From the IMG/VR virus record IMGVR_UViG_3300048592_001391, positions 1 through 64,000 of that record: a stretch of DNA of 64,000 nucleotides. One strand, given 5' to 3'. This DNA is from a virus. A program made the position numbers and the translations under genes. Positions 1,296 to 11,518 of the stretch are shown here, piece by piece; within the stretch, counting starts at the first letter, position 1; each line of letters starts with the position of its first letter. The notes beneath the pieces are model-generated. The model did not search any database and was not told the origin of the DNA. It was given only the letters and a program-made list of their open reading frames with translations.

Positions 1296-1922
1296 CTACT
1301 CCCACGCCTTTGAGTACGGGCGGTCCTTAAACAGCGCCGCTAACCCGCTAATCTGCTTCAAGCGCAATAGCTCATCCGCATCCATGCCCACATGCTTCAT
1401 GATCCAGTCGTTGCCCATTCCCGCTTCGGTCAACTCGGCCACAATGTTGACCATCAGGTCTACGCTATGCGTCCCTCGGGCGCGGTTGTGGCGAATGGTC
1501 GAGGCCATCCGGTCTGAGATTTCCCGCTTTTCCGGGCGGATGGTGGAGAGGGGGATGTAGCCATGTGTGGAACGGTGGATGCTGCTCGATGTCCGCTCAG
1601 CCTTGCGGCGGTGAAACCCGTCCACAATCCGATTGATGTCCCCATCAGGGAACGCCACAATGGGCATGGTGTACCCATCTTCTTCAATCGAGCGGATCAA
1701 CAGGCGCATCTCAGGCGGGGCAACGGCATTGGGGTTGTACTCGTTGCCTTCCACTTCCTCAGATCGCCGCCACTGTACAAAGTCTACCGGGTGATGCTTG
1801 AGCGGACTAACTTCGTGCAAGATTCCCCGCGCCCGGTTCAGGGCGTCAATCTTCTCATCTGTATCTGGCAGTGCCGCAATCAGTGCGTCCAGTTCGTTGG
1901 CTTTGGTCTCTATCTCATTCAT
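1296..1922 (-). CDS. ParB-like nuclease-domain protein, IbrB/YbdM type
   Basis: 208 residues. Residues about 58-110 carry a ParB N-terminal pattern: YNPN, then RSIEEDGYTMPIVAF, then the signature VDGFHRRKAER. Residues 138-200 form a helical region. The gene lies one base from a PAPS-reductase-family gene, the same pairing as ibrB-ibrA (immunoglobulin-binding regulators) and ybdM-ybdN in E. coli and its prophages. The biochemical role of these pairs is not settled; regulation or DNA modification are both suggested. The pair is almost free of ACGGCCGT. Confidence 0.8.
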   Translation of the reverse strand: MNEIETKANELDALIAALPDTDEKIDALNRARGILHEVSPLKHHPVDFVQWRRSEEVEGNEYNPNAVAPPEMRLLIRSIEEDGYTMPIVAFPDGDINRIVDGFHRRKAERTSSSIHRSTHGYIPLSTIRPEKREISDRMASTIRHNRARGTHSVDLMVNIVAELTEAGMGNDWIMKHVGMDADELLRLKQISGLAALFKDRPYSKAWE

Positions 1923-1923
1923 C

Positions 1924-3252
1924 CTATAAATCCTTGTATTTCTTCATGGCATCATGCCGCAATTGCTTCTCGTAGTTGGTCATCCCGTATCCCATGTACC
2001 TTGCACTGTAGTCGTTCTTGAGGATGGTGATGCACATACGCTTGTATGATGGCAGGTTAACGAAGTGCTTGCTATCAATCTCATCTGGGTACTCCGCAAA
2101 GCGAACCAGAATGATGTCATCCCGGTTCTGGTAAATCTTGCCGGGCGGCTTGCCCAATACCTCGAACTCATAGCCAGATGCGGCAATGTCTGGCAGGGAA
2201 TCCACATGAATGGTGGCCCCCTTCTCTAACCAGACGCGGAACGTAGACTTGAACTTCTCGCGGAACATCTTACCGATGTAGGGCGGCAGGGTAGACAGCA
2301 GGAACTCGCAGTAGCTTTTCCATGTGTGCCCAGGGGGAAGGGAGATGGATTTGTAGCCCATCGCCTTCGTTGCCCCGTAGATAGCTCCAAAATTCGCGCC
2401 ATTGACACGGCCGACAAGCCTGGCCCAGATGTCCGGTTCAATTGCCTTGTGCAGCCCCAAGCTGGCTACTCCCTCATCAATGAAGGCACTAGCAACACGC
2501 ATGTCCCCCAGCTCCACACCGGCCTGATAGTACAGGTCATAGAGCTTGTTGTAGTCGTAGTCGTTCTTGGCATTGGCTATCCAGATGTCCTCGGTCGCCC
2601 AATCGTACAAGGGGTAGCCACTGTAGCGATTCTTGCCCATGACCGTGATCCACTTTCGCCCCTGGTACATATTTACCTTGCTATCACTGGCAACGGCCCG
2701 CCAACGGTTCAGGCTTTCCTGCGCCCGAATGCCCAGCAGCCCAATCGTGCGGGTGGCTCCGTAACGGCCGTGAATCCACTCGTTGAATTTGAGGTCGAAG
2801 TCCGTGTCCTCGATCCCATGATAGTAGAAGTCAAACTCGTGGTTGTCCTTTGTAATGACTTCCAGCCCATTGCCCAACACAGGGTAATCACGTACCCATA
2901 TCTCCCGCTCTTCCTCGTTCCAGGGCAACCAGTAGTTGCGGTAGATGGAGACCCCACACTTGGTCTTGTAGGTCATGCACACCCAATAGAGGTCAATCAG
3001 GTCGGCGTTGGCCTCGACCATCCGCCGAATGAAGTCCTCGGTGTACTGGTAGCTCCCTTCGTAATCCATGTAGTAGACGCCTATCCGCTTCGTGATGTTG
3101 TGCTGGCGCATGTACTGGAAGATCATGTTCAGCAGCACCCCGCTATCCTTGCCCCCGGAGAACGACACATAGATGTTGTCGAACTCCTCAAAGATAAACT
3201 CGATGCGCTCCATTGCCGCGTCGTAGACGTTAATGTCTCTGTAGGTCTTCAT
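1924..3252 (-). CDS. PAPS-reductase/PP-loop family protein, IbrA/YbdN type
   Basis: 442 residues. The PP-loop motif SFSGGKDSG is at residues 30-38, the nucleotide pyrophosphatase loop of the PAPS reductase/ATP-sulfurylase-like superfamily. Downstream YWLPW, RTIGLLGIRAQES and a long C-terminal domain match the DUF3440-type architecture as I recall it. IbrA-like proteins are linked to regulation in E. coli prophages, and related PP-loop enzymes (DndC) act in DNA phosphorothioation, but no dnd partners are seen here. The ATG overlaps the helicase stop by 4 bases. Only one ACGGCCGT copy (about 2764) lies inside 1.33 kb, far below the window average, which suggests recent arrival. Confidence 0.85.
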   Translation of the reverse strand: MKTYRDINVYDAAMERIEFIFEEFDNIYVSFSGGKDSGVLLNMIFQYMRQHNITKRIGVYYMDYEGSYQYTEDFIRRMVEANADLIDLYWVCMTYKTKCGVSIYRNYWLPWNEEEREIWVRDYPVLGNGLEVITKDNHEFDFYYHGIEDTDFDLKFNEWIHGRYGATRTIGLLGIRAQESLNRWRAVASDSKVNMYQGRKWITVMGKNRYSGYPLYDWATEDIWIANAKNDYDYNKLYDLYYQAGVELGDMRVASAFIDEGVASLGLHKAIEPDIWARLVGRVNGANFGAIYGATKAMGYKSISLPPGHTWKSYCEFLLSTLPPYIGKMFREKFKSTFRVWLEKGATIHVDSLPDIAASGYEFEVLGKPPGKIYQNRDDIILVRFAEYPDEIDSKHFVNLPSYKRMCITILKNDYSARYMGYGMTNYEKQLRHDAMKKYKDL

Positions 3253-4661
3253 AGTAGTTTGGCTATCTCCTTCTTCAAGTCACTCCCCTTCTTCGCCTTC
3301 AGCGCATCCACCTTCCGCCGAAAGTCAGCCACCGCGTCCCCCTTGCTGGCCAGGCTCTTGGCTATCCGATCCTCAATCCCGCAAATGGCCCACACATCTA
3401 CATAGGTCGGCCGTCGCGCTTGCCCGATCCGGTGAATCCTGTCTTCGGCCTGTAGCCGATGGGCGTACTTAAACTCGTTCTCGTAGAAGATACTGTATGC
3501 CGCTTCGGTCAATGTCAGCCCATGCCCCCCGGTTGCCATTGAAGCAATCAGGAAACGGCCGTCACCCCGCCACCGTGCCAACTCGCTGCTCCGCTCTGCC
3601 TCACTCAAATCACCGTAATACTGCGCCACCGACGAACTGCCGTACACCCCCGCCAATGCCTCGGTAAGCTGCTGAATCGAATAGCGGTATTTGCACCAGA
3701 TAATCACCTTCTCGGCCTGGGGCAGGGACGCAACAACGCTCAGTGTTTGGTCTATACGGCCGTGCGGGAACTCCAGCATACGGCCGTTGCGGTTCCAGAA
3801 GCCGCTCACAATCTGCTGTAACGCGCCGAATAGCTGGAAGATCACGTAGCTATCCACCTCATCCATGCAGTTAAGCAATATCTCTTCTTTGGCCTGTTCA
3901 TAGGCATCCCGTTGCCGGTCAGTCAGGTGGAAGTAACGCGAATCGTATAGTTTCGGCGGCAGGTTCAGCCCTGCCTCTTCCTTCGTCACCTGATACACAT
4001 AGGGCTGCATCTTCGCCGCCAACCACGCCGTATTGTGCGCCCGGATCACCATGCCGGGGTACTTCTCGCTGTACTCCAGATGGTTGGCGGCAAAGCTATA
4101 GAATGAGTTGTATCCCAGTATTTTCGGGCTGAGGAAGCGCATTTGGGCATACAGGTCTTGGACGCCCTGGCTCATGGGTGTGCCAGTCAGCGCCAACCTA
4201 TACCGGGCTTGCTCACTGTATTGGGTGATGCGGTGGGTACGCATGGCGTTATGGCCTTTGATGTAGCTGCTCTCGTCCACAATGACGGCCGTTTCGCTGG
4301 TCGTCAGTTCGTGCGCAGCCAGAGCCACCCGGTTGCTGCTGCTCATGCTCTCGATGCCCACAATGTGCCAGAAGGCCGACCGGTTCAGGTTACGGCCGTT
4401 GGTCTTATCGTCGAAGATGTTGACGGCCGTAGCTGGGCAGTCCGTATGTTTGGCAATCTCCGCCGCCCATGTCTCCTTGAGAGACACTGGGCAGTACACA
4501 ATCACCCGGCGAATCCGCCGTTGCCGCCGCGCCATTAGCTCAATGGCTACTCGCGTCTTGCCCGTTCCCATGTCCATGAACAAGCCACCCACGCGAGTAG
4601 GCAATACCTTCTCGACGGCGGGTATCTGGTGGGGAAGGAGGCTAGTCGTTGTCTGCCACAT
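3249..4661 (-). CDS. SNF2-family DEAD-like helicase/ATPase
   Basis: 470 residues. Helicase motifs in order: Walker A DMGTGKTRVA (about 31-40), motif II VIVDESS (DESS instead of DEAH), motif III LALTGTP, and in the C-terminal lobe ASMATGGHGLTLTEA and EDRIHRIGQ (motif VI), the hallmark of SNF2/RapA-type translocases. It is shorter than cellular SNF2 proteins and has no N-terminal extension. In the same operon lie three proteins with HARP-like repeats, the accessory module fused to SNF2 in SMARCAL1. A role in remodelling forks or annealing single strands during phage replication is inferred. Confidence 0.9.
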   Translation of the reverse strand: MWQTTTSLLPHQIPAVEKVLPTRVGGLFMDMGTGKTRVAIELMARRQRRIRRVIVYCPVSLKETWAAEIAKHTDCPATAVNIFDDKTNGRNLNRSAFWHIVGIESMSSSNRVALAAHELTTSETAVIVDESSYIKGHNAMRTHRITQYSEQARYRLALTGTPMSQGVQDLYAQMRFLSPKILGYNSFYSFAANHLEYSEKYPGMVIRAHNTAWLAAKMQPYVYQVTKEEAGLNLPPKLYDSRYFHLTDRQRDAYEQAKEEILLNCMDEVDSYVIFQLFGALQQIVSGFWNRNGRMLEFPHGRIDQTLSVVASLPQAEKVIIWCKYRYSIQQLTEALAGVYGSSSVAQYYGDLSEAERSSELARWRGDGRFLIASMATGGHGLTLTEAAYSIFYENEFKYAHRLQAEDRIHRIGQARRPTYVDVWAICGIEDRIAKSLASKGDAVADFRRKVDALKAKKGSDLKKEIAKLL

Positions 4662-4666
4662 AGTTG

Positions 4667-4858
4667 TTAGTTCCCGCTGTAGAATCGCTTGTAGGCGATG
4701 TCAGCCAGCCGCATTGATTCGGCGGCATCCACACCACAACACGTCTCGATGTCCTTGAGATAGCCGGGGTAATCGGTTCCAGTTCTCAGCTTGGTGCGCA
4801 GCAAACGATAGTCCGCGTCCTCGTTCGTTTCGTTTGGTTGCTTCTGTAATATGTTCAT
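4667..4858 (-). CDS. Small hypothetical protein
   Basis: 63 residues starting MNILQKQP. The ATG at 4858 has GGAGG 8 bases upstream; a TTG three bases earlier is less likely. Charged N-terminal half, then CCGVDAAESMRLADIAYKRF, probably helical. It follows the 253-residue gene within 4 bases and ends 6 bases before the helicase, so it is a true operon member of unknown role. Confidence 0.65.
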   Translation of the reverse strand: MNILQKQPNETNEDADYRLLRTKLRTGTDYPGYLKDIETCCGVDAAESMRLADIAYKRFYSGN

Positions 4859-4861
4859 CAA

Positions 4862-5617
4862 TCAATCCTCCACCGGTAATATAGATGGTTCACTCACCGC
4901 GCTTGTGTCGGAGTAGATACGCCCCGCCTCAATCCGCCCAATGCACAAGGCAAGGGGCAAGTAATCTGGTACAAGAATCTCCATGCCCAATGTTAGGGCG
5001 TTGAGCGCATCTGCCCCCGACAACCGCAATTCTGCTTGCGCCACTTGCGCCCGTTCCCGGAACATCCGTATTGCCAACTCCGCCCCCTCTACTGCCGTAT
5101 CGCCACTTATCACAGCATCACACAGGTCATGGTAGCGGCTGGTAGACGCCTGCTGGATGTACGCCGCCATACCTGGATCCTCTTCGCCCATCAGCGCCAT
5201 AAACTCAGCAATCTCGGCGTCACTGGCCTGGGGCAACGGCGGCAAGCTGGCATCCACTTCGCGTACCACCTCATCCAGAATCGTGTCATACTCCTCCATC
5301 ATGTCTGGCCCCACCAATGCGCCATGTTGCAGAATGAGCGCCATCGGGTCAAAGAGAAAGCCGTAGCACAGTGCCTCCTCACGTACCTCTCTGTAACGCG
5401 CCCCGTAAGAAAGGAACACGTAACGGCCGTCACCGGCCAATCTGTCCAGCCCGAACAGGCTCCCATCTTCCCCCGGCGCTTTCGGCTCTGGGCGTGGCAG
5501 CAAGACGCCTGATGCTTCTATGGCATCGAAGCGACGGCGCACCGCTACGGCCGTTTTTGGGCTATCTGGTCGCGCTAATTCTGTTGCCCGTAGGCCAATG
5601 ATATGCTCAGCGTACAT
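4862..5617 (-). CDS. Hypothetical protein in HARP/SNF2 operon
   Basis: About 251 residues, mostly helical by composition, with acidic patches (EEYDTILDEVVREVD) and no motif I recognise. GGAGG lies 6 bases before the ATG at 5617; an upstream in-frame ATG at 5623 lies too close to that site. It overlaps the preceding HARP-like gene by 11 bases. Neighbours suggest a role with the helicase, but the sequence itself does not show one. Confidence 0.7.
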   Translation of the reverse strand: MYAEHIIGLRATELARPDSPKTAVAVRRRFDAIEASGVLLPRPEPKAPGEDGSLFGLDRLAGDGRYVFLSYGARYREVREEALCYGFLFDPMALILQHGALVGPDMMEEYDTILDEVVREVDASLPPLPQASDAEIAEFMALMGEEDPGMAAYIQQASTSRYHDLCDAVISGDTAVEGAELAIRMFRERAQVAQAELRLSGADALNALTLGMEILVPDYLPLALCIGRIEAGRIYSDTSAVSEPSILPVED

Positions 5618-6302
5618 CCTCATCCTCCATATCCTCCATCAAATCTAAATCAATCTCCACGCTCTCCGGCACATCCAGCAGTTGCGGACGGCCGTTGCCA
5701 CCAGCGGGCAACTCCGGCATAGCCATCGGTGCAAGCTGCACCACAACCGCCGCATCCCGTTCGGCTCTGGCCTCCTGCGCCAACAGGATGGCATCAGGGG
5801 AAACCGCACACGCATACATCTCGGCAAAATCCAGCACCGCCTCAAACTGTTCGGGCGGAACCACTACGCTACCACCCTGCCAACGCGATCCGGGCAGGCG
5901 CTTGACAATCTCCTTCAGCAGCCCGCCCCGCTCCTTGTGCCACCAAATGGAGAACCACCCGTCATACTCGCCACCCTTGGCGCGGGAAATGATGCGGACT
6001 GGCTCAGGCGTGAAGGTCTGGGCTACGGCCGTACTCATCACATCCACCGGCCCCTTCACACAGTAGCCAGCGGCCAGCAGCGCGTAGGCCAGTTCTGCTG
6101 CCCGTTCGTGCTGCTCTGCCTGGCTGACTTCGCGGGAGAAGTAGGGGGCTTTCCAGAAGTAGCCCCACCGCCGCACAAGCTCGTTGAATCCAGCGCCTTT
6201 CTCTGGGAAGTAGACGCGCACGGCCGTATCGCTGAGAGAGATACGGGCTATGCTATCGGTGCGCGGGGTTGACGGCCGTACCAGCAGCAGCTCATCACTC
6301 AT
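5607..6302 (-). CDS. Protein with two HARP-like repeats
   Basis: 231 residues. Two segments have the layout of the HARP annealing domain (partner-binding strand, helix with LV/IV, then a W...F/V strand pair): residues about 22-60 (VRVYFPEKGAGFNELVRRW ... PYFSREV) and about 117-165 (FSIWW ... LLKEIVKRLPGSRWQGG ... VVVPPEQFEAVLDF). HARP binds forked or single-stranded DNA in SMARCAL1. The acidic tail EDMEDEDVR ends in the next gene's start region. Similarity is by eye; the second repeat is clearer than the first. Confidence 0.6.
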   Translation of the reverse strand: MSDELLLVRPSTPRTDSIARISLSDTAVRVYFPEKGAGFNELVRRWGYFWKAPYFSREVSQAEQHERAAELAYALLAAGYCVKGPVDVMSTAVAQTFTPEPVRIISRAKGGEYDGWFSIWWHKERGGLLKEIVKRLPGSRWQGGSVVVPPEQFEAVLDFAEMYACAVSPDAILLAQEARAERDAAVVVQLAPMAMPELPAGGNGRPQLLDVPESVEIDLDLMEDMEDEDVR

Positions 6303-7035
6303 CGCTGCCCTCCAGGGCTAATCTGATCAGGCCGACAAAGCGGCGCAGCTTCTTTGCAACTTCCGCCTCTTCATCAGGGACTTCCTCCGGGTAGATTTTC
6401 TCTAGCGACGCCTTCATCACGGACAGCAATCCGTCCGTGTCGTATAGTTTGATGCCGCGCCGCTTTAGCTCGGCCAGCAAGTCGGCATCTTTCAGCATGG
6501 CGGCCGTGGTCGCTTCGCGCCGCGCCAATTCTGCCGCCAGGTCATCCACTGCGTAATTCGCCAGCGGATTGGGCTTCTCCTGCTCGCCGACTGGCTCGAC
6601 GCTCTTTGGCTCTGGCTTGATGATTGCGCCTTCGCGCATCTCCACGTCCAGCACCAGCGTACCAGACACATGCGGATTGGCGCGACTGCCACCGCTTTGG
6701 AGGTTTTGTTCAACGACGCGGAAATTAACGTCACCGCGCCGGAAACTCCAGTTGTCACGATTCACATACAGCAGGTTTGCGCCGTCAATGGAGAAATTGT
6801 CATCACGATCCAGGTGGATGGTCACGCGCTGCCACGAAGTTCGAGTGAAGAACTTGTCCACCAGAGGCATGACCTCCGGCCGTAGCTCCTCATCAAAACA
6901 CCACGCGCCATCAGCGCGGCGGAACTTAGCCGACGATGTGACCGCCTTCAGTTCCTCTTTGAATTGCTCGTTGTAGGGCGTGACAATCCCCACACGGCCG
7001 TCTACCGGCCCTTTGATCCACTCAACTTCGTACAT
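6295..7035 (-). CDS. HARP-like domain protein with acidic linker
   Basis: 246 residues. Residues 12-60 (GRVGIVTPYNEQFKEELKAV then AKFRRADGAWCF.EELRPEV) match the HARP layout seen in the neighbouring proteins. The rest contains a beta-rich middle, a hinge at about 145-160 (PKSVEPVGEQEKPNP) and a helical tail. The RBS AAAGGAG precedes the ATG at 7035. Immediately upstream is a 15-bp perfect hairpin built from two ACGGCCGT copies. Presumed partner of the SNF2 helicase; not proven. Confidence 0.6.
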   Translation of the reverse strand: MYEVEWIKGPVDGRVGIVTPYNEQFKEELKAVTSSAKFRRADGAWCFDEELRPEVMPLVDKFFTRTSWQRVTIHLDRDDNFSIDGANLLYVNRDNWSFRRGDVNFRVVEQNLQSGGSRANPHVSGTLVLDVEMREGAIIKPEPKSVEPVGEQEKPNPLANYAVDDLAAELARREATTAAMLKDADLLAELKRRGIKLYDTDGLLSVMKASLEKIYPEEVPDEEAEVAKKLRRFVGLIRLALEGSDE

Positions 7036-7045
7036 GATGCACTCC

Positions 7046-7082
7046 TTTGACGGCCGTACCCACCACAGGTACGGCCGTCAAA
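7046..7082. other. 15-bp perfect hairpin made from two ACGGCCGT copies
   Basis: Arms 7046-7060 and 7068-7082 are perfectly complementary with a 7-base loop; both arms contain the palindrome. No T-run follows on either strand, so it is not a normal terminator. On the minus strand it ends just before the Shine-Dalgarno of the 7035 gene, so it would sit in the mRNA between two genes and could act in mRNA stability or translation. Confidence 0.8.
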
Positions 7083-7137
7083 ATAATCAATTACCGCGCC
7101 CTTCTAGCGCATCCAAAACAATGGAGGGGGAAATAGA

Positions 7138-7416
7138 TTATTTCAAAATCACGCTCTGGAAACTTTTCCCCTTCATTCCCTTTGGCATGGCGACCTCCCC
7201 TTTTATGTACTCGATTTTTCCATCTGCTTTCAACTCTTCCATCGCCTGACCGACAATCCGATCAAGCGCCTGCCAATCATACTGGCGATCATAGCCCCAC
7301 TGTGTCCATGTATTCAGGACAGCTCTTTCGGGGCTGGTATGCCCTGAACTTCCGGCTGATTTCACAGACCGGATAATGATTTCTTTCGCAGATTCTAGCA
7401 ACTGATTTTCGTTCAT
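7138..7416 (-). CDS. Small hypothetical protein
   Basis: 92 residues starting MNENQLLE. AGGAG lies 6 bases before the ATG at 7416, while the longer frame to 7440 lacks a site. It reads as a compact winged-helix-like protein (YDWQALDRIVGQAMEELKAD then GKIEYIKGEV), but that is weak. It sits between two HARP-like genes and lies inside an 0.84-kb stretch without ACGGCCGT. Confidence 0.65.
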   Translation of the reverse strand: MNENQLLESAKEIIIRSVKSAGSSGHTSPERAVLNTWTQWGYDRQYDWQALDRIVGQAMEELKADGKIEYIKGEVAMPKGMKGKSFQSVILK

Positions 7417-7483
7417 TTCAGTCTCCTGTTTGCCGGGCATTCCGGCCTTTGTTGGTTAGTAAAATCGCTTAGGGCGATTCTGT

Positions 7484-7531
7484 CCCCGCCGTCTTTAACG
7501 CTATGGCGCTTCTCCCGTAGGCGCGGCGGGG
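7484..7531. other. GC-rich inverted repeat in spacer
   Basis: CCCCGCCG (7484-7491) and CGGCGGGG (7524-7531) can pair around a 32-base interior that itself holds GCGC/GCGC arms. It occupies the 123-base spacer between two genes of the same operon. There is no T-run, so a processing or attenuation hairpin is more likely than a terminator. Confidence 0.35.
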
Positions 7532-7539
7532 TTGGGGGG

Positions 7540-8118
7540 CTAGTAGATTCCAGCAGCTTCGTAAATCCGCTCTTTTGCCGTAGTCACTTCGTCGTCCTGC
7601 GCTTCATACAGCGCAGCTTTCGCGTCGGAGTACCAGTGATAGAGCGCCATCACTTCGACTTCTCGCGCTGGCGTGGCGAATTTTATGCTGCCCATTTCTA
7701 GCCGCGATTCAAAATTATACGAGGTAATAGCGGGTAGTACCTTTGGATTCAGTTGGATTTGCTCCGCCCGTTGACGCAATTCTGCGTCAAGGGCAAAGAA
7801 CTTATCCCCAAACGCTTCGGATATTTCGGCTTCGGCCTTCCGCGCTTGAACCTGCGCACTCCACTCATCCCGACTGTAGCTATTGCCATACTTGGTCACA
7901 TGCGATCCGCTGGCAAGACGGCCGTTGCTGTGCCCACTCGTTACATCGTAGGGGAATCTGCACCCGCGCCCAAAATCTTGCAAAGAAACAGGGATGCTCC
8001 ATGTCTTTGTCGCCGAATCGAAGTTCCGCCCCTCAAACGATTTGACGAAATTCAGTGCGCTTTGAAAATCACCGCCGACCTCTACCATCCCATCTTTTAA
8101 TTGAATCTTTATTGCCAT
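7540..8118 (-). CDS. HARP-like domain protein, first gene of the 8.2-0 kb operon
   Basis: 192 residues; ATG at 8118 with AAAGGA upstream. Residues 5-45 give the clearest HARP match here: VEVGGDFQSALNFVKSFEGR then NFDSATKTWSIPVS, close in layout to the SMARCAL1 repeat (LI..FKQM.SR.YD..TRKW.F). The remainder is helical (QARKAEAEISEAF...LDAELRQRAEQIQ). It is first in the operon after a TTGACA-N17-TAATAT promoter, so HARP-like proteins are probably made first and in the largest amount. Confidence 0.7.
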   Translation of the reverse strand: MAIKIQLKDGMVEVGGDFQSALNFVKSFEGRNFDSATKTWSIPVSLQDFGRGCRFPYDVTSGHSNGRLASGSHVTKYGNSYSRDEWSAQVQARKAEAEISEAFGDKFFALDAELRQRAEQIQLNPKVLPAITSYNFESRLEMGSIKFATPAREVEVMALYHWYSDAKAALYEAQDDEVTTAKERIYEAAGIY

Positions 8119-8174
8119 CTTCGCATTCCTTTGCCCTGTCAGGCCAACCAAAATCAATAATCAAGTACAGATGA

Positions 8175-8203
8175 ATATTACCACATCACAAAAACAGTGT
8201 CAA
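8175..8203 (-). promoter_or_regulatory. Sigma70-type promoter with extended -10
   Basis: Minus strand: TTGACA (8203-8198), 17-base spacer ending in TGTGG, TAATAT (8180-8175). It drives the HARP/SNF2/IbrAB operon. The extended -10 TGTGGTAA is shared with promoters at 52.1 and 60.0 kb. Confidence 0.85.
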
Positions 8204-8240: not shown

Positions 8241-8274
8241 AAACAAAACGGCCGTACCCAAAGGCACGGCCGTT
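8241..8274 (-). terminator. Intrinsic terminator built from two ACGGCCGT copies
   Basis: Minus strand: the arm from 8274 and the arm ending at 8247 form a 12-bp stem with one G-T pair and a short loop, followed by TTTTGTTTTG. It terminates the gene ending at 8310, and the HARP-operon promoter starts 38 bases further on. Both arms are copies of the iterated palindrome. Confidence 0.85.
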
Positions 8275-9128: not shown

Positions 9129-11105
9129 CTACCGACGACGCTTCAACAGCCTGTCCGCGTCGGTGTTGCCCTGCTGCGCCAACCATTCCAGCGCCGGGTA
9201 CAGACGGCCGTCAAGGAACTGACCAGACGGCCGTTCACTGCTCTCATCACTCAGGAACGTTCCCGCCGCATTGACCGTGCGGAACTCCCGCAGGTAGGGC
9301 AGCAGTCTACGGCCGTCCATCTCCGCTTGGGTCATTTGCGGCTGTACGGGCTGCTGCACCACAGGCGGGGCAGGGGGAAGATTCACAACCGGCGCTCCCG
9401 CCTGCACCTGTACCCGATCCGACATCACCCGAATGGCTGGAGTAGGCACAACCAAACCCTGCAACGAATCCGGTAGCTCATTCGGCCGTACTCGCGTCGA
9501 ATCCAGCAGCGCCCCTACATCACCGCGCCCTGGGTAGAAGCCCACGGCCTCACCCGTACGGCCGTTGATGTTGTAGATGAAACGGCCGTTGGGCAAGCCC
9601 ACCGAACCGGAAGCATAACCATCCTGCTTGCCCACATCCAAAAACGTCCGACTAGCGGCGGCACTGTTCATGCGGAAGCCGATGGTTGCCATTTGGCGGC
9701 GCAAGCGCATCCCGTGTTCACCCGCCGCGTCCTTTGTCGGGTCGGTCATGGAAACAGCCAGGAAGATGCCGTACTTCCGTGCCTCATTGGTAATGTTAAT
9801 CAGGCGCAGCCACATGATCGTAGCCTGGAACGTCAGGTCTTTGGCCGTGTCGTGCTCTCCGCTCAGCCGCGCCAATTCCGCCGCTTCCTTCGCCGCGCCG
9901 ACAATCGTCAAGAACTCATCAATGGCAATCAGGATTTCCCCCGATTCACCCATCGCTTGCGGCAACTCCGACCAATTCCGGGCGCCAGTCCGCGCCAGCA
10001 CACTGTCTCTCCGGTGCATCTCGCTTACCACAGCGTCCAGGAATTGCGCCAATGGCTCAATGAGCGCCAACGGCCGTAACGCAGGCCACACGGTCAAATT
10101 GGGCTGATTGGCGAACGGCGCGAAGTCAGAGCCACGGCCGTTGATGATGACCACATGGGTACTGTTGCGCCAGTTCCCGGCCACAAACGGGACCAACCCG
10201 GAAGCGGTCTTACCCGCGCCCGTAGTCCCGGCCACCAGCAGGTGGGGATTCTGTGACCGATTGACAAACACAGGCATCTGGTTCTCGATGTCCACGCCAA
10301 TGGGCACGGTATCCGGGTCTGCGTGACGCATGAACATCGTCCAACTGGCGCGGGGCAGTCGCTTCGGGGCTTCAATGCCACTGGCAACAACCGGCTGTTG
10401 TGGGGCAGGGAGCGCCAATGTACTCATGCTGTTCCCGGCCAACATCGGCAAGGGCGACATCCCGCCACGGCCGTCCGGCACAATGGCAATCCGGTTGCCC
10501 ATATGCTCCACATGGTAGACGGGGTTACGGCTGCGAATCATGAGATAAGAGAATAGCCCAGCAGTGGTCATGCAGATAATCAGGAACACGCCCACCGCAA
10601 ACGGGATTGCCTCGTTCCACATCTCCCGCCGCCGCTGCTCCGCCAATAACCGGTTCTGCTCCGCCTCGCGCAACATGCGCACATTCTGCATATGCTCCGC
10701 TTCGGCCGTCATCTCCGCCATCACCATCGCCGCTTGCCGGGTAGCTGTCCCCTCGGCCACAATCGCATTTTGCGTTTGCACGGCCACCAATGCAATCTCG
10801 GTCGCCCGTACACTCAAATCAGCGGCGGTGCTGGTAGCAGCGACGGCCGTACCGGTAGCAATGGCCTCAGATGTGCCAGTAGCGGCCACACGCGCCTGTT
10901 CGGTCGTCTGGATAACCGCCTGGGTCGCGGCAATGGCCGCGTCATAGGTAGCGGCGGCATCCTGTGCCTGTCGGGCGGCAATCGTCGCATTGACGGCCGG
11001 ATTACTCGGCGGCACAAGCGCACTCTGCGGCTGACCACCTGTCGCCGGAGGCGTGGCGCAACCGGCCAGAACCATCACCATGAGCAATCCGTAAATCCAT
11101 CTCAT
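9129..11105 (-). CDS. Membrane-anchored FtsK/HerA-like ATPase with lipoprotein signal
   Basis: 658 residues from the ATG at 11105 (ATGA overlap with the previous gene; AGGA upstream). Order: lipoprotein signal WIYGLLMVMVLAGC (lipobox LAGC), Ala/Thr-rich coiled coil (about 30-160), membrane helix (FAVGVFLIICMTTAGLFSYL), then a P-loop domain with Walker A AGTTGAGKT and Walker B ILIAIDEFLT, and later GFRMNSAAASRTFLD, as in FtsK/TraG-type translocases. C-terminal Pro/Gln linker and small helical domain. A DNA pump with a lipid-anchored N-terminus is unusual in a phage. A role in DNA movement or segregation at the membrane is inferred. Confidence 0.8.
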   Translation of the reverse strand: MRWIYGLLMVMVLAGCATPPATGGQPQSALVPPSNPAVNATIAARQAQDAAATYDAAIAATQAVIQTTEQARVAATGTSEAIATGTAVAATSTAADLSVRATEIALVAVQTQNAIVAEGTATRQAAMVMAEMTAEAEHMQNVRMLREAEQNRLLAEQRRREMWNEAIPFAVGVFLIICMTTAGLFSYLMIRSRNPVYHVEHMGNRIAIVPDGRGGMSPLPMLAGNSMSTLALPAPQQPVVASGIEAPKRLPRASWTMFMRHADPDTVPIGVDIENQMPVFVNRSQNPHLLVAGTTGAGKTASGLVPFVAGNWRNSTHVVIINGRGSDFAPFANQPNLTVWPALRPLALIEPLAQFLDAVVSEMHRRDSVLARTGARNWSELPQAMGESGEILIAIDEFLTIVGAAKEAAELARLSGEHDTAKDLTFQATIMWLRLINITNEARKYGIFLAVSMTDPTKDAAGEHGMRLRRQMATIGFRMNSAAASRTFLDVGKQDGYASGSVGLPNGRFIYNINGRTGEAVGFYPGRGDVGALLDSTRVRPNELPDSLQGLVVPTPAIRVMSDRVQVQAGAPVVNLPPAPPVVQQPVQPQMTQAEMDGRRLLPYLREFRTVNAAGTFLSDESSERPSGQFLDGRLYPALEWLAQQGNTDADRLLKRRR

Positions 11106-11518
11106 TCCAGCCATCCTGTTTCTTTCGGCGCTGGCAGTTGGGGCACAGTCGCCGGTTCCTCGATCCATGGTTGTTGGGGCACAACCAGCGGCTTTCCCGC
11201 ATTCCCGCCGCCCTTGCGCTTCAACTCTTTCTTTAATAGCCGCGTCTCTTTCAGTATGCGGGGTAGGGGGGTTGCCAGCAGCAGCACGAACGCGGCAATC
11301 GTCACCAGCCCCAAGAACGGCAAGAGGATGGAACTGCTACGGCCGTTCCGCTCACTTTCCCGAAAGCGCACAATGTCCTCCATCGGATCGGCCTTCGTCT
11401 GCTCCTCCACCATCATCATGGTTGCCTTGTCAATGGTAGGGGATAGGTGTCCCATCGTCACGGAACACCCGCCAACAATCACCGCCAGCAGAGCAAGGAG
11501 AAGTAATACCTTATCCAT
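11102..11518 (-). CDS. Putative lipoprotein with second membrane helix
   Basis: 138 residues starting MDKVLLLLALLAVIVGGCS: a lipoprotein signal with lipobox VGGC. A second hydrophobic segment (SILLPFLGLVTIAAFVLLLA, about 75-95) is followed by a basic stretch KETRLLKKELKRKGGG and a Pro-rich tail. The start overlaps the previous stop as TAATG, the end overlaps the ATPase start as ATGA. Probably a partner of the ATPase at the membrane. Confidence 0.7.
   Translation of the reverse strand: MDKVLLLLALLAVIVGGCSVTMGHLSPTIDKATMMMVEEQTKADPMEDIVRFRESERNGRSSSILLPFLGLVTIAAFVLLLATPLPRILKETRLLKKELKRKGGGNAGKPLVVPQQPWIEEPATVPQLPAPKETGWLE

Follow-up and report, generated by a model that had tools for sequence, protein, structure and literature searches.

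The DNA analysed here (the window) comprises positions 1-64,000 of the 65,512-base IMG/VR virus record IMGVR_UViG_3300048592_001391. A common minus-strand gene run in the window encodes a SNF2-family motor (3249-4661) and three proteins (7540-8118, 6295-7035, and 5607-6302) that carry four short ββαββ(α) segments, resembling the HARP module of the metazoan annealing helicase SMARCAL1. We consider it probable that this run specifies a phage translocase of the SNF2 type that acts on double-stranded DNA and has its DNA-structure-recognition modules on separate subunits, and that the product of 5607-6302 is the recognition subunit of the motor.

In this scheme, the two HARP/damage-recognition domain (DRD)-like modules of 5607-6302 would act with the motor, and 7540-8118 and, less surely, 6295-7035 would contribute additional modules of the HARP type. 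If the analogy with SMARCAL1 and the T4 helicase UvsW holds, the modules would position the motor at forks, bubbles, or branches, where its ATP hydrolysis would drive re-annealing or branch migration of DNA. The data establish the family of the motor, the gene neighbourhood, and the fusions in relatives, with the fold of 5607-6302 as a confident prediction; we infer complex formation, DNA-structure binding, and annealing or fork remodelling.

Association of 5607-6302 homologues with the motor

Direct homologue searches with 5607-6302, using either the single sequence or the whole alignment, failed, the alignment having no conserved stretch of sufficient length. Homologues were found via loci fetched starting from the motor (80 viral and 26 genome loci; 104 counted, including the window's own, L001). 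A 5607-6302 homologue adjoined, or was fused to, a homologous motor in 49 of the 104 loci. The two were separate genes in 41 of these, with the upstream module gene mostly overlapping the start of the motor open reading frame (ORF). In the other eight (L002, L006-L008, L013, L015, L025, and L083), a 5607-6302-like region lay N-terminal to the motor in a single chain of 659-929 amino acids. Some of the loci are near copies of one another and thus do not represent 49 independent cases. Because homologues adjoin or are fused to the motor at these loci, the module-motor pairing is real, in line with a preliminary description of this DNA, which had placed HARP-like modules and motor in separate genes of a single run.

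Two of the fused proteins, those of L002 (874 amino acids) and L083 (929 amino acids, in an Anaerolineae contig), carried two tandem copies of the region, i.e. four modules and the motor in one chain. L033 had no two-module protein, and a 109-amino-acid single-module protein occupied the same place; in comparisons with the HARP and the module-1 profiles, it outscored each of 100 shuffles. For more distant motors (~30% identity), no module partner was detectable by profile searches.

In a tree of 54 motors, restricted to the phage type, the seven fused motors included formed one clade with the trio of the window, L003, and L027 (support 98/97), and the split state was spread over the rest of the tree. 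This single supported clade indicates that fusion arose within the window's own clade. The window's split state would, on this tree, represent either fission or escape from fusion. Overall, separate genes are the usual arrangement in this broad phage family, which lacks annotation.

A full-length relative of the long form of 5607-6302 was found in only one of 50,697 public phage records; the other eight matches covered the N-terminal third only. The long homologues match phrog_16123, over residues 1-134 only in the case of L005, and the window protein has no N-terminal extension of the kind matched by this family. In most relatives, the N-terminal ~150 amino acids ahead of the HARP-like modules form an extension with a zinc ribbon and an LxGSxKQxxWAxxIR motif (e.g. 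L005:4653-5798). This extension matches the anti-CRISPR protein AcrIF23 (7fia; E = 8e-6). As AcrIF23 is an inhibitor of Cas2/3 (PMC13381967), this anti-CRISPR may have its origin in the present protein of replication or repair type.

Predicted folds

An AlphaFold model of 5607-6302, built from a 30-sequence alignment, showed two ββαββα modules with a mean predicted local distance difference test (pLDDT) score of 91. Module 2 superposed on the archaeal XPB N-terminal domain (2fz4; Z = 5.5, 1.7 Å over 53 residues) as well as on XPB and p52 in TFIIH, and module 1 superposed on archaeal XPB (5tnu; 2.2 Å over 55 residues). In a Foldseek search of BFVD, the model matched the HepA-related protein of Bacillus phage vB_BcoS-136 (E = 1.1e-3, probability 1.00, 163 columns), itself a true HARP protein with two stretches matching Pfam HARP (E = 1.2e-11). 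The global template modelling score between the two was low (0.35), as would be expected if the two modules sit differently in each protein.

The preliminary description had assigned the HARP layout to all four segments. In the models, a HARP/DRD-like fold is confidently predicted for 5607-6302 only. The model of 6295-7035, made from three sequences, had a pLDDT of 62 and placed residues 5-64 in ββαββα order, suggesting that this stretch may share the HARP-like order; beyond residue 64, a β-rich domain is followed by a helical tail. Fold comparison of this low-confidence model gave no HARP/DRD match and was not informative.

Sequence likeness to HARP

The curated cut-off of the Pfam HARP family (PF07443) is 25 bits. 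Against this family, 7540-8118 scored 15.8-19.1 bits, below the cut-off (E = 0.01 for the whole protein, 9.8e-4 for the N-terminal 52 amino acids, and 1.9e-4 in the record), and no Pfam HARP match was found for 5607-6302 or 6295-7035. A match of any strength was seen in one of 32 records. A reference profile was then made from the two HARP domains of vB_BcoS-136 and their relatives from phages PJN02 and 2S-4, and the segments were compared with it by hhalign, with 200 column shuffles of each as the control. Module 2 of 5607-6302 scored 23.2 and the N-terminus of 7540-8118 scored 22.6, values reached by none of the 200 shuffles. The N-terminus of 6295-7035 (22.2) and module 1 of 5607-6302 (16.0) were each equalled or exceeded by one shuffle in 200. 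The three ORFs proposed earlier were found in place, and each of their four segments exceeded at least 199 of 200 shuffles.

The segments had also been expected to resemble one another, and this was not clearly borne out. By profile comparison, their mutual likeness was mostly not above shuffles; the only pair to stand out was module 2 of 5607-6302 with 6295-7035 (4/200 shuffles). The four segments appear to be alike in layout, and each resembles HARP but, at the sequence level, not clearly the others.

One member of the 5607-6302 family matched Pfam XPB_DRD (E = 0.0035), and SMARCAL1 HARP was not returned by a PDB sequence search. Homologues of 6295-7035 were found only in L003 and L027, and a role of this protein in the system is faintly suggested. 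No convincing homologue of 7540-8118 was found; a 29-residue stretch in L082 fell in no listed ORF and was taken as chance. The SNF2 helicase gp75 of Corynebacterium phage P1201, which emerged from the BFVD fold search, showed no sequence-level HARP signal at its N-terminus and was not counted.

The SNF2 motor

The motor matched PF00176 (E = 2.2e-25) and PF00271 (E = 2.3e-11) and belongs to phrog_62 (DNA helicase; E = 1.6e-96). Its best solved relative was the Sulfolobus SNF2/Rad54-family helicase 1z63 (E = 5e-29), and the SMARCAL1 motor was absent among the solved structures listed as matches. Phage SNF2 helicases are common, and 1,558 public records matched the motor. Its weak similarity to SNF2 proteins from the Zorya, DISARM, and Dnd systems mostly reflects the common motor family; assignment as a defence-system protein was rejected, the PADLOC matches being to the SNF2 motor that many systems have in common.

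The generic motor was also weakly similar to the RapA profile (E = 7e-7), as might be expected of a machine that serves transcription or takeover of the host by removing RNA polymerase or host proteins from DNA, in the manner of RapA/HepA or chromatin remodellers. However, recruitment by RapA depends on other domains, and none of these was recognised here; HARP/DRD modules go with recognition of DNA structure. We regard such a role as highly improbable.

Among related motors, that of the closest relative (L003:4870-7332, an 820-amino-acid ORF) carries an intein-like insertion in the Walker A motif (GTGK-A...HN-T). In L019:5965-7479 and L026:5944-7500, the phmmer match to the motor is broken mid-domain, the first stretch ending near query residue 292.

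Objections and alternative explanations

Several observations weigh against a translocase with 5607-6302 as its recognition subunit. None of the four segments reached the Pfam HARP cut-off. The matches listed for the 5607-6302 model included no solved structure of SMARCAL1 HARP, and its Z-scores in the PDB comparison (5-6.4) were tied with those of unrelated folds such as aIF1/SUI1, module 1 giving a Z of 6.4 on aIF1. In the window, the genes 4862-5623 and 4667-4861 separate 5607-6302 from the motor. Finally, lasting linkage to a PAPS-reductase-like gene points away from plain fork repair.

Taken alone, the Z values of the modeled modules could mean a common ββαββα arrangement. The HARP/DRD likeness of 5607-6302 would then amount to this arrangement, and the protein would be a generic small α/β nucleic-acid-binding processivity or loading factor without structure-specific recognition. 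Its escape from detection by Pfam HARP fits such a factor, as does the finding that aIF1/SUI1-type and ACT-like folds scored as well as the XPB DRD. However, in the independent comparison with the genuine HARP profile, both modules stood above 199-200 of 200 shuffles; the annotated HARP protein in BFVD is matched over 163 columns; and the 5607-6302-like region lies N-terminal to a SNF2 motor, in precisely the position that HARP takes. We consider a generic binder improbable.

The main rival explanation to the recognition-subunit proposal comes from the neighbouring genes. The DUF3440/PAPS-reductase family was present in all 12 of the related motor-holding records tested, and ParB-like homologues lay downstream of the motor in most relatives. 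Given the constancy of the DUF3440 gene, the machine may serve a wider DNA-processing cassette. Motor and recognition subunit could thus belong to a DNA-modification or restriction-evasion cassette, in which the DUF3440 and ParB-like proteins would perform or control a chemical reaction on DNA and the remodeller with its HARP-like modules, instead of repairing forks, would open or scan the DNA for them. Weak, partial similarity of 1924-3252 to DndC (E = 1.8e-6) and BrxP (E = 6e-4), together with the likeness of the motor to the Zorya, DISARM, and Dnd SNF2 proteins, is consistent with this. On the other hand, the likeness to DndC is partial, the genes scanned included no recognisable cysteine desulfurase or other Dnd partner (no partner-specific search was made), and fusion and adjacency link the HARP-like subunit to the motor alone. 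On balance, we judge the cassette explanation unlikely.

Gene run and surrounding features

The gene run starts at 8118 and continues past 833 towards lower positions, its genes overlapping or separated by short gaps (Table 1); junctions overlap or nearly touch at 6302/6295, 5623/5607, and 3252/3249. These contacts, together with the hairpin and promoter-like site upstream of 7540-8118, make an operon plausible. The same two signals suggest that 7540-8118 may be the first gene of the transcript, although promoter-like sites in the consensus scan are no more frequent than in shuffles.

Table 1. Features of the gene run and its upstream signals (window positions).
Feature	Position	Strand	Evidence or remarks
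Terminator-like hairpin	8247-8274	-	Just upstream of the gene run; consensus scan
Promoter-like site TTGACA-17-TAATAT	8174-8203	-	Before 7540-8118; consensus scan, 10/12 matches, extended -10 TG
192-amino-acid protein, first gene of the run	7540-8118	-	HARP-like segment at residues ~3-48 (8112-7975)
100-amino-acid ORF within the run, function unknown	7138-7440	-	ORF list; no significant match in family scans
246-amino-acid protein	6295-7035	-	Possible HARP-like segment at residues ~5-64 (7023-6844)
231-amino-acid protein with two HARP/DRD-like modules	5607-6302	-	Modules at residues ~16-87 (6257-6042) and ~102-163 (5999-5814); AlphaFold2 model, XPB-DRD and BFVD matches, homologues beside or fused to the motor
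253-amino-acid ORF between module gene and motor, unknown	4862-5623	-	No homologue in relatives
64-amino-acid ORF between module gene and motor, unknown	4667-4861	-	No homologue in relatives
SNF2-family ATPase motor, 470 amino acids	3249-4661	-	PF00176, PF00271, phrog_62
PAPS-reductase-like PP-loop protein with DUF3440, conserved motor neighbour	1924-3252	-	DUF3440, E = 4e-63
ParB-like protein, conserved neighbour	1296-1922	-	phrog_2159, E = 1.5e-65

The PAPS-reductase/DUF3440 and ParB-like pair (1296-3252) is kept beside the motor in phages of many hosts, and nothing useful on the phage function of DUF3440 with ParB was found in the literature. No match to DNA polymerase A (PolA) or DnaB was found in the window, and it had been supposed that the system could replace such missing replication genes. 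This idea did not hold up: three relatives (G025, G028, and G029) carry DnaB plus this motor, showing that the two are not alternatives.

The palindrome ACGGCCGT occurs at 221 sites across the window, compared with ~1.6 expected from base composition, often in close hairpin-forming pairs (e.g. 7050/7071 and 8248/8266). Among the fetched loci, its enrichment was confined to the closest relatives, L003 and L027, and did not extend to L083 or L002; it is a HIP1-like lineage signature. Region 9129-11168 encodes a 679-amino-acid protein with an FtsK/SpoIIIE-type ATPase domain (E = 5.5e-7), and a protein that looks related to it (L027:2187-3758) lies upstream of the L027 module genes.

Significance and comparison with known systems

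SMARCAL1-type enzymes rescue stalled replication forks in animals. A phage family in which the parts are split, fused once, or fused twice constitutes a natural experiment on what HARP contributes to a SNF2 motor, and the parts of the phage system can be separately purified, mixed, and swapped. The proposal also gives an unannotated phage protein family a testable function. More tentatively, the loci may represent a widespread and so far unrecognised phage family of SNF2 remodellers in which HARP-type sensors of DNA structure are interchangeable subunits, with one to four modules that are either separate from the motor or joined to it. Such a family would be the counterpart of SMARCAL1 in viruses of prokaryotes and might be coupled to a DNA-processing cassette with a PAPS-reductase-like protein.

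We found no published description of a family of two-module HARP-like subunits beside or within a SNF2 motor. The novelty claimed in the preliminary description stands to this extent. It does not extend to the split, which is common and has single-chain versions, nor to the components, as HARP proteins of Bacillus phages are annotated and T4 UvsW is known (PMC3778716).

Among phage families, the motor falls in phrog_62 and the long 5607-6302 homologues match phrog_16123, whose function is unassigned and which covers only the N-terminal extension that the window protein lacks. The archaeal and eukaryotic XPB damage-recognition domain is the closest solved fold for both modules of 5607-6302; XPB is not a SNF2 protein, however, and has the module in the same chain, and sequence identity is low (11-13%). 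Mason and colleagues (PNAS, 2014) reportedly found a common fold in SMARCAL1 HARP, the XPB DRD, the mismatch domain of MutS, and the N-terminal domain of T4 UvsW.

T4 UvsW is likewise a phage enzyme, a superfamily 2 (SF2) helicase that rewinds DNA and regresses stalled forks (PMC3778716), but it belongs to another SF2 family and is a single chain. The UvsW chain was absent among the structure matches listed for the 5607-6302 model. The HepA-related (HARP) proteins of Bacillus phages vB_BcoS-136 and PJN02 are stand-alone phage proteins, and that of vB_BcoS-136 has two HARP domains and a predicted fold that matches 5607-6302. They differ in showing no detectable pairwise similarity in sequence to the proteins of the window, and no SNF2 motor was found in the vB_BcoS-136 record.

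SMARCAL1 itself has one or two HARP domains directly N-terminal to its SNF2 motor, and fusion of two HARP domains to other SNF2 proteins gives annealing-helicase activity (PMC4035279). A 2022 review describes it as having no known prokaryotic homologue (PMC9368896). SMARCAL1 also has an N-terminal motif that binds RPA, for which a phage would need an equivalent binding SSB. The window system differs from SMARCAL1 in its phage host, its extra modules, and the absence of any segment at the Pfam HARP cut-off. Its modules are also encoded by separate genes in the window, whereas the eight fused relatives, like SMARCAL1, carry the HARP-like module or modules N-terminal to the SNF2 motor in a single chain.

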